Below are positions 13,788-36,823 of a stretch of 64,000 nucleotides of DNA, one piece after another. The notes below the pieces were generated by a model. That model did not search any database, was not told the DNA's origin, and worked only from the letters and a program-made list of their open reading frames with translations. The DNA is taken from assembly GCF_001553935.1 (NCBI RefSeq), contig NZ_CP014232.1, positions 1,550,001 to 1,614,000 on the forward strand. The letters are read 5' to 3'. The stretch is from Actinomyces oris (lineage in GTDB: Bacteria; Actinomycetota; Actinomycetes; Actinomycetales; Actinomycetaceae). Every line of letters begins with the position of its first letter. The first letter of the stretch is position 1. A program made the translations under genes and the position numbers.

Positions 13788-15344
13788 GTGCATCCTTCCC
13801 GCGCTGTCTCCAGTGTGGGGGCGGTTCTGACCGCCCTCCCCCTCGCCCTTGGTGCGCTCGTCGCCCCCACTGTTGTGGCGCCCCCGGCCGCTGCTGCCGG
13901 GCAGACCACTCTTGCCTCCCCTCAGCCTCTACCCACTGCTCAGATGGACGGCATCGTTCTGGACCAGGCGGTGGTGGGCAATACCGTCTACGTCGTCGGG
14001 GAGTTCAAGAACGCTCGCCCCTCCGGCGCCGATGCCGGTGAGAACGAGTCGCCTCGGTACAACGCCATGGCCTTCGACATCACCACCGGGGCGCTGCTGG
14101 ACTGGGCCCCCAAGGTCAACGGCAAGATCAATGCGGTCGAGGCCTCGGCCGACGGCTCCACCATCTACCTCGGCGGCAACTTCACCTCTGTCAATGATGA
14201 GACGGTCTATCGGGTGGCGGCAGTGGACGCTGCAGGCAAGCGCAAGCCGCTGGGGGCGTCGGCCAACGGCATGGTGATGGATCTGGAGATCTCTCCCGAC
14301 GGCTCGACCCTGTACCTGGCGGGCTCCTTCACTCAGATCAACTCCTCAGCGCGGCAGCGCGCCGGCGCCGTGGATCTCAAGACGAACAAGGTCACCAGCT
14401 TCGCTCCCCAGGTCGACGACTCCCTGGTTCGTTCCATCACGGTGGCCACTGACAACTCCGCTGTGGCGATCGGTGGCTCCTTCACCTCGGTGGGAGGTTC
14501 CTCCGACGCCTACGGGATCGCCGTTCTGGAGAAGGACGGCTCTGTACGGAACACCAACATCTCCAGCGTCATCCGCAATGCGGGTTCGAACTCCGGCATC
14601 ATGAGCCTCAAGTCGGACTCTCGGGGTCTGTACGGCACCGGATATTCCCAGGAGGGGACCTTCGAGGGGATGTTCCGGGCCAGCTGGACCACCGGGGATA
14701 TCGATCTCATGGCCGACTGTCACGGTGACACCTACGACGTGCTGCCCACCAATGACGTCATCTACATCGCCAGTCACACCCACGACTGCAGTAACATCGG
14801 CGGTTTCCCCGACCGTTCCGATACGGAGGGGGTCTACCACCATGCTGTGGGCTTCTCCAGCACGGCGACGGGCACCGTGCGCTCCAACACGGCTCGTGGC
14901 TACAGCGACTATGCGGGAATGCCCGCCCCCACGCAGTACAACGGCTTCCTGCCGGGGTTCCAGATCGGTGAGTACAGCGGTCTGAACCAGGCCGTGTGGA
15001 CCGTTGAGGGTAACAGCCAGTACCTCGTCTACGGCGGTGAGTTCGTCGCGGTCAACGGCACCAAGCAGCAGGGCCTTGTCCGTTTCTCCATGAGCGGTGG
15101 CGATGTCAACGCCGCTGAGCCCGGTAACGAGGATGCCGACAACGGCAACAACGGCAACAACGGCAACAACGGCAATAACGACGACGGCGACAACGGCAAG
15201 GACAAGCAGGACAAGAAAGACAAGAAGAACAAGAAGAAGAACAAGAAGAAGCAGGACGACTGGGATGACCAGGATGGCTGGGACCAGGGCGACTGGGACC
15301 AGGCCGGCTGGGACGACAACCAGGGCGGCGGCTGGTGGTGGTGA
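13788..15344 (+). CDS. Secreted DUF5122-type beta-propeller protein with Lys-rich and Trp/Asp-rich tail (paralogue 1)
   Basis: The protein has 518 residues. GTG start with GGAG upstream. A Sec signal peptide ends near AAAAG (about residue 37). Residues 45-440 hold repeated blades of the delta-60/DUF5122 type, for example SADGSTIYLGGNFTSVN and SPDGSTLYLAGSFTQIN. Near residue 311 is the segment CHGDTYDVLPTNDVIY, followed by HTHDCSNIGGFP; Cys, His, Gly, Asp and the HxHxC are kept in all three propellers of this window. The last 75 residues are unusual: Asn/Gly repeats, a lysine block (KDKKNKKKNKKKQ), and a Trp/Asp-rich end finishing in GGGWWW. There is no LPxTG sorting signal or second membrane segment, so release or ionic wall binding is likely. 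The function is unknown; a glycan-related role is inferred from context. Confidence 0.85.
   Translation: MHPSRAVSSVGAVLTALPLALGALVAPTVVAPPAAAAGQTTLASPQPLPTAQMDGIVLDQAVVGNTVYVVGEFKNARPSGADAGENESPRYNAMAFDITTGALLDWAPKVNGKINAVEASADGSTIYLGGNFTSVNDETVYRVAAVDAAGKRKPLGASANGMVMDLEISPDGSTLYLAGSFTQINSSARQRAGAVDLKTNKVTSFAPQVDDSLVRSITVATDNSAVAIGGSFTSVGGSSDAYGIAVLEKDGSVRNTNISSVIRNAGSNSGIMSLKSDSRGLYGTGYSQEGTFEGMFRASWTTGDIDLMADCHGDTYDVLPTNDVIYIASHTHDCSNIGGFPDRSDTEGVYHHAVGFSSTATGTVRSNTARGYSDYAGMPAPTQYNGFLPGFQIGEYSGLNQAVWTVEGNSQYLVYGGEFVAVNGTKQQGLVRFSMSGGDVNAAEPGNEDADNGNNGNNGNNGNNDDGDNGKDKQDKKDKKNKKKNKKKQDDWDDQDGWDQGDWDQAGWDDNQGGGWWW
15141..15176 (+). repeat. Four tandem 9-bp units encoding Asn-Gly-Asn
   Basis: Four consecutive copies of AACGGCAAC (the last ends in AAT) lie in the coding tail of the first propeller. 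Each adds Asn-Gly-Asn without shifting frame, so copy number can change by slippage while the protein stays in frame. Confidence 0.85.
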
Positions 15345-15454
15345 CCATGAGGCCTGTCGGGTCAGCGGATCGCCGCGGGGTATCCCCCGAATCGTCCGGT
15401 TCTATCGTCAGCGGGGGTGTGCTTCCCAACTCAGTGGTCGCTGAGGGTGACGCA

Positions 15455-34511: not shown

Positions 34512-34900
34512 CCCATAGCCACCGCGCGCTAGTTCCGGCCTTCACTCTCCCGACCTCGCTGGGCCCCGTACCGGGGTCCGGCGAGGGCGTCTGTCATGGG
34601 GCGGGCTCCCCATGACGGCGAGTCGCGCTCAGGGCGTGGAGCACTCTTCAGGTAACGATTATGTTGCAATCCGACCTCACGGTCGCGTAGCGTGGTGCCG
34701 TCATGGATTTGTGACCTTTTCGTTCTCTCTTCGTGCTCTGCATGAGTGGACACGCTCCCTGAAGCAACACGCACTACCAGTTAAATTAATCGTTATCACA
34801 GACATTCGACCGGCGACTCACGTGGGCCTCATTCGCTCTGATGTCAATGGTGTGCCGTGATCCCCCTGCGCGTTGCTCGCCATATGTACCGGAGGTTTCC
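34512..34900. other. Intergenic region upstream of the third beta-propeller gene
   Basis: These 389 bases become clearly AT-richer toward the right (ACCAGTTAAATTAATCG near 34780), typical of a regulatory region next to acquired genes. TTGCAA at 34664 and TAGCGT at 34688 are 18 bases apart and could form a promoter, which would leave a leader of about 200 bases. A CGTTATC motif near 34788 resembles the one upstream of the first propeller. No coding sequence is supported. Confidence 0.35.
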
Positions 34901-36823
34901 GTGCGTCGTCTCTCCACCATCCCTCGTCTCGCCATCATCCTGTCCCTCCTGCCGCTGCTGCTCGCCTCGATGGTCGTCCTGACCCCCGCCGCGCCGGTGG
35001 CCATGGCTCAGGAGGCCGACGCCGATGGGAAGGACCAGGGCGACGGCTCGGACAACGTCGGTGACGACGAGGGCCCCGCCGCTGCAGGCGCCGACCCCTC
35101 CGGCCAGTCCTCTCGTGAGCCCGTGTACACGGCGGCACCCCTGCCCACGGTGCAGATCGACGGCGTCGCCTGGGGGCAGCTCGTCGTCGGCGACGTGGTC
35201 TACGTCGTCGGCAGCTTCGACAACGCCCGCCCGGCCGGCGCTCCCAAGAAGCAGCAGCAGGTCGCGCGCTCCAACATCCTGGCCTATGACCTCAACACCG
35301 GGAAACTCATCGAGGACTTCGCCCCCACCCTTAACGGGCCAGGACGCAGCCTGGCTCTCTCCCAGGACGGCAAGACCCTTTACGTGGCCGGGGAGTTCGA
35401 CCAGGTTAACGGCGAGTGGCACAGCCGCTTGGCGGCCTTCGACCTCACTCAGGGGCACGGAACCCTCATCTCCTCCTTCAAGCCCATGTTCAACACGACC
35501 GTCAAGGACATCGCGGTCGCCGGCGACACCCTCTACGCCGGGGGCTACTTCACCAAGGTGAACGGTCAGCCGCGCGTCAGGGTGGCCGCCCTCAAGGCCT
35601 CCACCGGCCAGCTGCTGAACTGGACCGCCTCCGCGGAGGGGCCCAATGCCCAGGTGTACGCGATCGAGGTCTCCCCGGACCACTCCAAGGTCGTCATCGG
35701 CGGCTCCTTCTCCTCGGTCAACGGCTCGAGCAAACCCGGCTACGGGATGGCGCTCCTGAGCGCCTCCACCGGCGAGGTGCTGCCCATGCCCGTCAATGAC
35801 ATCGTGCGCACAGCCGGAGAGAAGGCCGCCATCTTCGACATCGCCGTCGACGACGACGGTTTCTACGGCACCGCCTACTCCGCCGTCGGACGCCTTGACG
35901 AGGCCAACCTTGAGGGGAGCTTCAGGGCGGACTGGGACGGCAACCTCGTCTGGCTCGAGCCCTGCCACGGTGACACTTACGGGATCGCCCCGACCAAGGA
36001 CACCGTCTACACGGTGGGGCACGCCCACTCCTGCGAGACCATCTACGGGTTCCCCAATATGCCCGAGGTTCGCAAGGACGGTCCGCACCCCCTGTATGTG
36101 CGGGCCATGGCCTTCACCAACAGCCCCGATATCACCATCCGCCACCAGGGGGTGGTCGACGGGTACCAGGACTGGTCGACGTCGGGCTACAAGAGCCCCA
36201 CGATCATCGGCTGGTACCCGGACCTGGAGGCGGGCAAGTACACGGGTATGTCCCAGGCCGCCTACAAGGTGGACGTCACCGACTCCTACGTCCTCATGGT
36301 GGGTGAGTTCGTCGAGGCCAACGGCACGACCCAGCAGGGGATCGTGCGCTACCCCAAACGTGCGGGCCAGCCCACGCTGCCCCCCGAGGGCAAGGCCGAG
36401 ACCCTGGCCGCCAAGGCGGAGGTGACGGCCCCGGGCTCGGTGAAGGTGGGGTTCAAAGCCACCTGGGACCGCGACGACCCGACCCTGACCTACAGCCTCT
36501 ACCGGGATGACGAGACCACGCCGGTGGCCACTGAGAAGATCGGCGACACCCGCTGGGCTCTCATGAACCACAGCCTGGAGGACACCACCTGCGCGCCTGG
36601 TGATCACACCTACCGCCTGGTGGTCTCCGACCCCAGCGGCAACACCATCACCGCCCAGATCCCCAGTGTCACGGTCCCCCAGACGGCGCAGAACAACAAG
36701 GAGAAGGGCAAGAAGGCGCAGCCCGCCGCTGAGGCGAAGGACGCCGCCAAGGACGCGGACCAGGGCGGCAACCAGCAGGACGCCGATGAGGACCAGGCCG
36801 CCGATGAGGAGGACGACAACTAA
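34901..36823 (+). CDS. Secreted beta-propeller and Fn3-like protein with acidic tail (paralogue 3)
   Basis: The protein has 640 residues. GTG at 34901 follows GGAGG at a five-base spacing. A Sec signal peptide ends near VAMAQE (about residue 36), followed by an acidic Asp/Gly linker. Propeller blades span about 80-480 (SQDGKTLYVAGEFDQVN, GDTLYAGGYFTKVNGQPRVR). At residue 355 the shared segment reads CHGDTYGIAPTKDTVY, followed by HAHSCETIYGFP. An Fn3-like module (about 500-610, FKATWDRDDPTLTYSLYRDD) is very close to that of the second paralogue. The last 45 residues are Lys/Ala then Asp/Glu-rich (DEDQAADEEDDN). No sorting signal. It opens a module with a Wzz protein and a Wzy-like polymerase between prs and mfd. 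Confidence 0.86.
   Translation: MRRLSTIPRLAIILSLLPLLLASMVVLTPAAPVAMAQEADADGKDQGDGSDNVGDDEGPAAAGADPSGQSSREPVYTAAPLPTVQIDGVAWGQLVVGDVVYVVGSFDNARPAGAPKKQQQVARSNILAYDLNTGKLIEDFAPTLNGPGRSLALSQDGKTLYVAGEFDQVNGEWHSRLAAFDLTQGHGTLISSFKPMFNTTVKDIAVAGDTLYAGGYFTKVNGQPRVRVAALKASTGQLLNWTASAEGPNAQVYAIEVSPDHSKVVIGGSFSSVNGSSKPGYGMALLSASTGEVLPMPVNDIVRTAGEKAAIFDIAVDDDGFYGTAYSAVGRLDEANLEGSFRADWDGNLVWLEPCHGDTYGIAPTKDTVYTVGHAHSCETIYGFPNMPEVRKDGPHPLYVRAMAFTNSPDITIRHQGVVDGYQDWSTSGYKSPTIIGWYPDLEAGKYTGMSQAAYKVDVTDSYVLMVGEFVEANGTTQQGIVRYPKRAGQPTLPPEGKAETLAAKAEVTAPGSVKVGFKATWDRDDPTLTYSLYRDDETTPVATEKIGDTRWALMNHSLEDTTCAPGDHTYRLVVSDPSGNTITAQIPSVTVPQTAQNNKEKGKKAQPAAEAKDAAKDADQGGNQQDADEDQAADEEDDN

Follow-up and report, generated by a model that had tools for sequence, protein, structure and literature searches.

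A 64-kb stretch (the window) of the 3.04-Mb single-contig genome of Actinomyces oris carries three genes for secreted seven-bladed β-propeller proteins, which share the signature CHGDTY followed by HxHxC. By sequence, the three proteins are members of a wide, unnamed actinobacterial family. The linkage of this family to polysaccharide-assembly genes is real, and a new observation is the frequent presence, next to the propeller, of a gene for a membrane-anchored, DUF4352-like protein. It is proposed that these propellers act outside the cell on the polysaccharide of the neighbouring Wzx/Wzy-type locus, by the mechanism set out below, and the chances of this proposal are judged to be about even.

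All three genes lie on the forward strand, and by inspection each of their products begins with a Sec-type signal peptide. Gene 1 (13788..15344, 518 residues) encodes the signal peptide, the seven-bladed propeller (13908..15104, modelled as residues 1-399) and a tail that is Lys-rich and then Trp/Asp-rich. Its CHGDTY lies at 14718..14735 (C271-Y276 of the model) and its HTHDC at 14775..14789 (H290-C294). In gene 2 (16624..19692, 1022 residues), the signal peptide and the propeller (16759..17949; CHGDTY at 17575..17592, HSHDC at 17632..17646) are followed by LamG and unnamed C-terminal domains. Gene 3 (34841..36823, 660 residues when read from the ATG at 34841) encodes the signal peptide, the propeller (35120..36370; CHGDTY at 35963..35980, HAHSC at 36020..36034), an unnamed stretch and an acidic tail. 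The ATG at 34841 gives the longest open reading frame (ORF) of gene 3 and makes the signature Cys residue 375; nevertheless, the GTG at 34901 is the likelier start, as the sequence GGAGG lies directly upstream of it.

A six-frame scan of the window bears out the initial annotation, which had described three secreted propellers (genes at 13788, 16624 and 34901) with this signature. CHGD occurs exactly three times (14718, 17575 and 35963, all on the forward strand), each time followed by HxHxC (14775, 17632 and 36020), and the residue numbers given earlier for the signature (311, 318 and 355) are correct. Degenerate DNA for CHGDTY is found three times in the whole genome, always within the window, and a reversed-pattern control gave no occurrence. 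The spacing of about 16-18 residues between the two halves has to be corrected, as it is 13 in all three proteins. The I-x-G-F-P motif described further on does hold in the three proteins, but its Pro is not kept in the orthologues, which carry GGFS or GGFA.

Known families cover the propellers in part. Protein 1 passes the curated Pfam cut-offs of both Rax2 (PF12768; 32.3 against 28.8) and DUF5122 (PF17164; 27.1 against 27). Protein 2 passes that of Rax2 (35.9) and stays below that of DUF5122 (15.5), and protein 3 passes that of DUF5122 (40.5) with Rax2 just below (27.7). These blade matches are weak, some lying just over the cut-offs, and the best-scoring stretch in each of the three proteins, the only one listed per protein, ends at or before residue 294, outside the signature. 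NCBIfam gave no match to the three proteins, Pfam gave no lyase or hydrolase family, and sequence searches of the PDB returned nothing useful for the propeller domain.

The family extends well beyond A. oris. Protein 1, used as the query, has a match in 47 of 200 genomes from the taxonomic family (E<=0.001), and its propeller finds 21 of 197 genomes of the class at 1e-20. A 22-sequence profile matches 74 of the 396 sampled genomes of the order at E<=1e-40; within the phylum, 25 of 396 genomes match it at 1e-20, the weaker matches being partial and covering some blades only. Up to four family matches occur per genome. The idea that only the three window proteins matter was ruled out by this wide family across the order. 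Among the papers listed by literature searches on Actinomyces surface polysaccharide and actinobacterial propellers, none was seen to describe the family or the locus.

The signature is kept with great constancy in the family. In a first survey, the C and the HxHxC were present in 125 of 126 distinct rows. The remaining row, L059, which lacks the signature, comes from a different family of the phylum and is a propeller of the ordinary kind. C-x-G-[D/A]-x-x with HxHxC is kept in all 76 family ORFs from 60 loci and 25 genera outside Actinomyces, with a spacer of 13 residues in 73 of them, 14 in two and 15 in one; the loci were picked by a profile containing the signature, which may favour signature-bearing relatives. 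Conservation was then counted over 73 non-redundant propellers, less than 80% identical to each other and taken from the 154 long rows among 257 rows of a hidden Markov model (HMM) search. C271, C294, H290 and H292 are invariant and rank one to four among all alignment columns. E378 is likewise present in 73/73, R50 in 72, R37 in 71 and E253 in 70 (with Asp in the other three).

Two residues of the CHGDTY half are less strictly kept. His272 is found in 55 of the 73 propellers and Asp274 in 70, and on the maximum-likelihood tree the HGD label requires at least four changes; three xGA rows stand together on one side of a branch with support of 94/95. From these counts and changes, the true core of the signature reads as C...HxHxC, with His272 and Asp274 as common but replaceable additions. 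The statement that Cys, His and Asp are unchanged therefore stands for the two Cys, His290 and His292, but not for His272 and Asp274. Homologues lacking signature residues in the same context, which the initial annotation had named as a refutation, do occur for the HGD part; for C...HxHxC, none was found among the 76 family ORFs. The three CYGAST loci (L150-L152), for instance, keep their glycan genes, with the partner gene lying roughly 1 kb upstream. A strict HGD requirement was ruled out by these loci, by a C[L/Q]GATQ type and by the count for His272.

The model of the gene 1 propeller domain shows a closed ring of seven, mostly four-stranded blades, with a predicted local distance difference test score (pLDDT) of 90.1 and a predicted template modelling score (pTM) of 0.91. 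According to its DSSP assignment, C271-H272 fall between strands 265-270 and 273-280, whose neighbour, strand 284-291, has H290-C294 at and past its end. Because a short turn joins strands 273-280 and 284-291, His272 would face His292 and Asp274 would face His290 (the residue numbers of facing pairs summing to about 564), with C271 near C294. A single hairpin would thus carry the signature, at the top face of the propeller (D-A and B-C loops). The clustering of the Cys and His residues, for which the initial annotation had suggested a structure prediction as a check, agrees with the strand limits of this model.

It had also been suggested that the site is stabilised either by a metal or by a disulfide. 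The conserved site is supported, and a Cys271-Cys294 disulfide is likelier than a metal site, because the number of Cys in the propeller domain is even in all 73 propellers (exactly two in 70, four in three). The same parity disfavours the metal, and the view of both Cys as most probably metal thiolates was rejected on it. The best 50 rows of each of two PDB fold searches hold WD40-like and designer propellers, with no PL25-type ulvan lyase among these rows. The listed matches of a viral fold search are mostly unnamed phage and giant-virus propellers; a protein named as a galactose oxidase stands at rank 38, and rank 43 is an endosialidase propeller.

To examine the association with neighbouring Wzx/Wzy-type genes, 13 glycan proteins encoded in the window, none of them taken from the tested loci, served as queries. 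These were searched in 60 propeller loci and, as controls, in 40 regions placed arbitrarily in genomes from the same set, each region spanning 19 kb except for three propeller loci at contig ends (11-13 kb). At least one query matched in 52/60 propeller loci, spanning 24 of the 25 genera, against 0/40 controls, which upholds the association; at least two matched in 48 and at least three in 40, again against none of the controls. Since loci of one genome or genus are not independent, the significance of this test is overstated. By single query, the CDP-alcohol (cytidine diphosphate-alcohol) phosphatidyltransferase was matched in 30 loci, two family 2 glycosyltransferases (GT2s) in 26 each and the third in 19, the DUF1972 glycosyltransferase in 25, the TagD-like cytidylyltransferase in 20, the family 4 glycosyltransferase (GT4) in 19, the initiating sugar transferase in 16 and the Wzy-like protein in 14, each with 0/40 controls. 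Four non-glycan genes of the window gave 0, 0, 5 (TetR) and 0 of the 60 loci against 0, 0, 1 and 0 of the 40 controls.

A Pfam scan of the neighbours is in keeping with this. It covered 132 of 138 selected proteins (six of the longest were omitted, and genes below 120 or above 1200 residues were outside the selection). Glycos_transf_1 was found in 16 of them, and Wzz, Bac_transf, CTP_transf_like and CDP-OH_P_transf were also present among the 25 families listed out of 72. For 107 control proteins, the glycan-type families among the 25 listed out of 124 are two GT2 models only, with two proteins each; single-member control families may be hidden in this tally.

A further frequent companion of the propeller is the partner gene. 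In the window, it lies between propellers 1 and 2 (15335..16168, forward strand) and encodes a lipoprotein with a low-complexity linker and a DUF4352-like domain (15770-16165). Its ORF opens at 15335, and a lipobox, LAAC, has its Cys at 15548-15550. The GTG at 15485 or the ATG at 15500 is a likelier start than 15335, and the RefSeq counterpart, at 684 nucleotides, fits the start at 15485. Relatives of this gene are present at 43/60 propeller loci, in 22 of the 25 genera, and at 0/40 controls; an earlier count based on a gene caller was lower, at 29/65 loci and 15/26 genera. Out of 44 matches, 43 are on the same strand as the propeller, 40 are upstream of it, and 39 are within 300 bases of it or overlap it as stop-to-stop frames. 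Inspection of 25 members showed a lipobox in many and, in others, a membrane segment at the N terminus; after this anchor comes a low-complexity linker and then a C-terminal domain with PGE..GP. DUF4352 (PF11611) was the best or second-best match of all four partner proteins tested, with scores of 20.1, 16.9, 18.9 and 16.4 bits, below the cut-off of 25.9 bits.

The invariant site and the usual neighbourhood of surface-polysaccharide genes suggest that the propellers probably bind or process the sugar coat. In the proposed mechanism, the Cys271-Cys294 disulfide would pin the top-face hairpin of blade 6. The pinned hairpin would then present His290 and His292, in most cases joined by His272 and Asp274, along with Glu253, Glu378, Arg37 and Arg50, as a binding site. 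The long forms, with LamG, PKD and the unnamed C-terminal domain, may link polymers to each other or to the cell, and the short forms with charged or aromatic tails, such as genes 1 and 3, may bind locally. Holding or docking the propeller at the cell surface would be the task of the membrane-anchored partner. The core does not vary among genera whose polymers presumably differ, so the target is probably a unit which these polymers share, either one at the reducing end or at the anchor or a phospho-alcohol substituent, and not the variable repeat. The substituent is named as a candidate because CDP-alcohol and cytidylyltransferase genes are frequent at the loci; as the ligand, it is speculation.

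By analogy, a polysaccharide-binding surface or matrix protein similar to Bap1 and RbmC is the most likely role. The propellers of Bap1 and RbmC are eight-bladed, and RbmC is encoded with exopolysaccharide genes, a position which the present family shares at its 52 glycan-matched loci. We know of no C...HxHxC signature and no DUF4352-like partner for these two proteins. One report describes them as secreted matrix proteins of Vibrio cholerae, in which a β-propeller binds and cross-links the exopolysaccharide VPS (PMC11695861). The window propellers resemble them in being secreted, in being propellers and in the proposed binding of polysaccharide, a putative likeness of function; they differ in the number of blades, seven in A. 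oris, and in the phylum.

Several observations weigh against this proposal. Eight of the 60 loci have no glycan match, and some of the queries were rarely matched: Wzx in six loci, NodZ in two, Wzz in one and the acyltransferase in none, each with 0/40 controls. The partner gene is missing from 17/60 loci, including all ten of L153-L162, nine of which are of the C[L/Q]GATQ type (L162 is untyped). The argument from the top face of the model is modest. Among positions with a consensus of C, H, D, E, R, K, Q, W or Y, those above 4 bits make up 13/42 at the top and 2/19 at the bottom, a difference which is a trend, the loop limits having been drawn by hand. Further, the invariant His/Glu/Arg set is unusual for a lectin with ligands that vary by genus, and it fits a catalyst at least equally well.

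This last point leads to the main rival reading, which we hold to be doubtful but worth serious attention: that the propeller is a polysaccharide lyase, hydrolase or transferase, whose top-face His residues are catalytic or bind a metal and which trims, releases or links the polymer. The complete conservation of H290, H292 and E378, together with the near-invariance of E253, R37 and R50, speaks for such an enzyme, and a site invariant over 25 genera suits a common reaction. Other seven-bladed propellers are glycan lyases: PL25 ulvan lyases have catalytic His and Tyr with Arg and a structural Zn held by His180, His240, Cys242 and His247, an HxC pattern (PMC13193363), and FoRham1 binds its sugar in a cleft of the propeller's anterior face (PMC8377490). 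The families PL24, PL25 and PL42 share the seven blades and a conserved His with the A. oris propellers and act on acidic polysaccharide, the PL25 Zn being held by His and Cys. The propellers described here, in contrast, match no Pfam lyase family, and their Cys parity points to a disulfide and not to a Zn thiolate. The replaceable His272 and Asp274 also tell against an enzyme, and the three copies in the window, the up to four matches per genome and the differing tails suit binders better. A more specific version is regarded as unlikely: a new secreted two-gene system of Actinomycetia, in which the C...HxHxC propeller, pinned by its disulfide, is docked on the DUF4352-like partner. The propeller, which may represent a new class of extracellular polysaccharide-processing or -attaching enzyme, would act on a unit that polymers differing in other respects have in common (the reducing end or a CDP-alcohol-derived phosphate), so fixing or releasing the sugar coat.

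The signature might instead serve only to staple the structure, its disulfide and hydrogen-bonding His residues closing blade 6, with the ligand bound elsewhere. The even number of Cys, two or four, in every propeller agrees with it, as does a core that stays fixed in position while His272 and Asp274 vary. But two invariant His residues, two positions apart, outrank all columns save those of both Cys, which seems more than a staple needs, and 70 of the 73 propellers have no other Cys pair; such a role is thus quite improbable. The neighbourhood, finally, could be read to mean that the propeller, together with its membrane-anchored partner, serves in assembly or anchoring by helping to attach or polymerise the surface glycan, and is not a matrix protein. 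The partner gene nearby on the same strand and the linkage to the CDP-alcohol phosphatidyltransferase, DUF1972, TagD and Wzy genes are in its favour. We know of no such propeller in Wzx/Wzy assembly, however, and the LamG, PKD and long C-terminal regions suit bridging outside the cell, so that this role is considered very unlikely.

The binding proposal gives a particular place to the long forms. Family members range from about 500 to 2050 residues, and LamG and PKD were found in three of three long members scanned. For protein 2, the initial annotation had named an Fn3 and two concanavalin-like domains. One Laminin_G_3 domain was recovered by Pfam (residues 617-774, 18472..18945, forward strand, E 4.1e-19), but no Fn3 appeared up to E 0.1, residues 524-572 giving a weak Ig-like match (E 0.032). 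For the second of the supposed concanavalin-like domains, Pfam gives nothing convincing (the best is GH115_C, E 0.042) and the PDB gives no sequence match. This C-terminal region (19105..19689, forward strand) is a domain common to much of the family, being found in 47, 56 and 56 of the 76 propeller ORFs in HMM rounds one to three; a fourth round, with 70/76 ORFs, was left unused for its apparent drift into other domains. G8, G9, R74, G131, W142, E147, P148 and G166 are invariant in its 23 rows, and its model is of low confidence (pLDDT 45). Short forms without this domain adjoin long ones or share a genome with them (L107, L126; L104 with L105; L113 with L114). In the short protein 1, the Trp/Asp-rich end of the tail (about 15105-15341, forward strand) is kept by orthologues in 11 named Actinomyces loci and the Lys-rich block in eight of these (L004-L011); among the Actinomyces orthologues, the tail is kept as composition and not as residue order.

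The order of genes in the window begins with the TagD-like cytidylyltransferase (4873..5313, reverse; a CTP_transf_like match within the ORF 4873-6669, with a syntenic RefSeq gene) and the initiating sugar transferase (5316..6770, reverse; Bac_transf, E 1e-62). The Wzx-type flippase (7177..8748, forward), the CDP-alcohol phosphatidyltransferase (8690..9652, forward), a NodZ-like glycosyltransferase named after its syntenic RefSeq gene (9697..10683, forward), the GT4 (10774..12333, reverse) and the DUF1972 glycosyltransferase (11946..13115, reverse) follow. Then come propeller 1, the lipoprotein, propeller 2, diaminopimelate dehydrogenase and the three GT2s (21780..22580, reverse; 23067..24119 and 24116..25168, forward). 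A protein of the major facilitator superfamily (MFS) precedes the Wzy-like polymerase (27598..28968, reverse; Wzy_C at 27.4 bits, below the cut-off of 31.7) and the chain-length determinant (28975..29634, reverse; named after its syntenic RefSeq gene). After TetR, the membrane acyltransferase (30643..32208, reverse; Acyl_transf_3), a GlmU-like enzyme and Prs comes propeller 3.

This order is conserved in the RefSeq annotation of A. oris WVU627 (NZ_CP116225.1), where C-x-G-D...HxHxC is present in all three propellers. Propellers 1 and 3 and the partner are named 'hypothetical' there, and propeller 2 is a 'LamG domain-containing protein'. That record (L182) is a 415-kb 'plasmid unnamed1' with the whole locus, prs and pepN. 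It may be a piece of chromosome or a chromid, since the window genome has the locus on its single 3.04-Mb contig. In WVU627, a ParD/RelE pair lies between propeller 2 and ddh (23114-23643 of the locus record), and the window at about 19803-19892 has a 30-residue, 87% match to that ParD (E 0.025), which is perhaps a remnant of the pair. In the place of pepN, the window has a 771-residue Pro/Ser/Ala-rich protein (36944-39259, reverse), whose N terminus is weakly similar to Wzz (E 0.00082, below the cut-off).

Other genes of the window are also of note. At its edge, a giant protein adjoins the glycan genes (2-4876, reverse; 1625 residues visible) and extends past the window, with nine Big_9 stretches, cadherin-like and Fn3 domains; its syntenic A. 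oris gene, of 6.3 kb, is named 'Ig-like domain-containing protein'. The MFS transporter gene (25532-26953, reverse) has a third-position guanine-cytosine (GC) content of 0.60 against about 0.9 in its neighbours, which suggests recent acquisition. A mobile origin of the propeller family as such was rejected, with family matches in 2 of 72,556 plasmid records and 1 of 50,697 phage records. The phage-record match, MT835675.1 (L183), is an unverified fecal scaffold which looks bacterial, as it carries CDP-alcohol transferase, GT2 and partner-gene matches and the stretch read has 71% GC.

Genes that RefSeq names 'hypothetical' belong, then, to a family tied to sugar-coat loci and found in 74 of the 396 genomes sampled from the order. 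With its invariant site and its partner gene, the family is a handle on the retention or processing of exopolysaccharide in Gram-positive actinobacteria, including the Actinomyces of dental plaque, and each of the four invariant residues, like the partner gene, is a single target open to testing.

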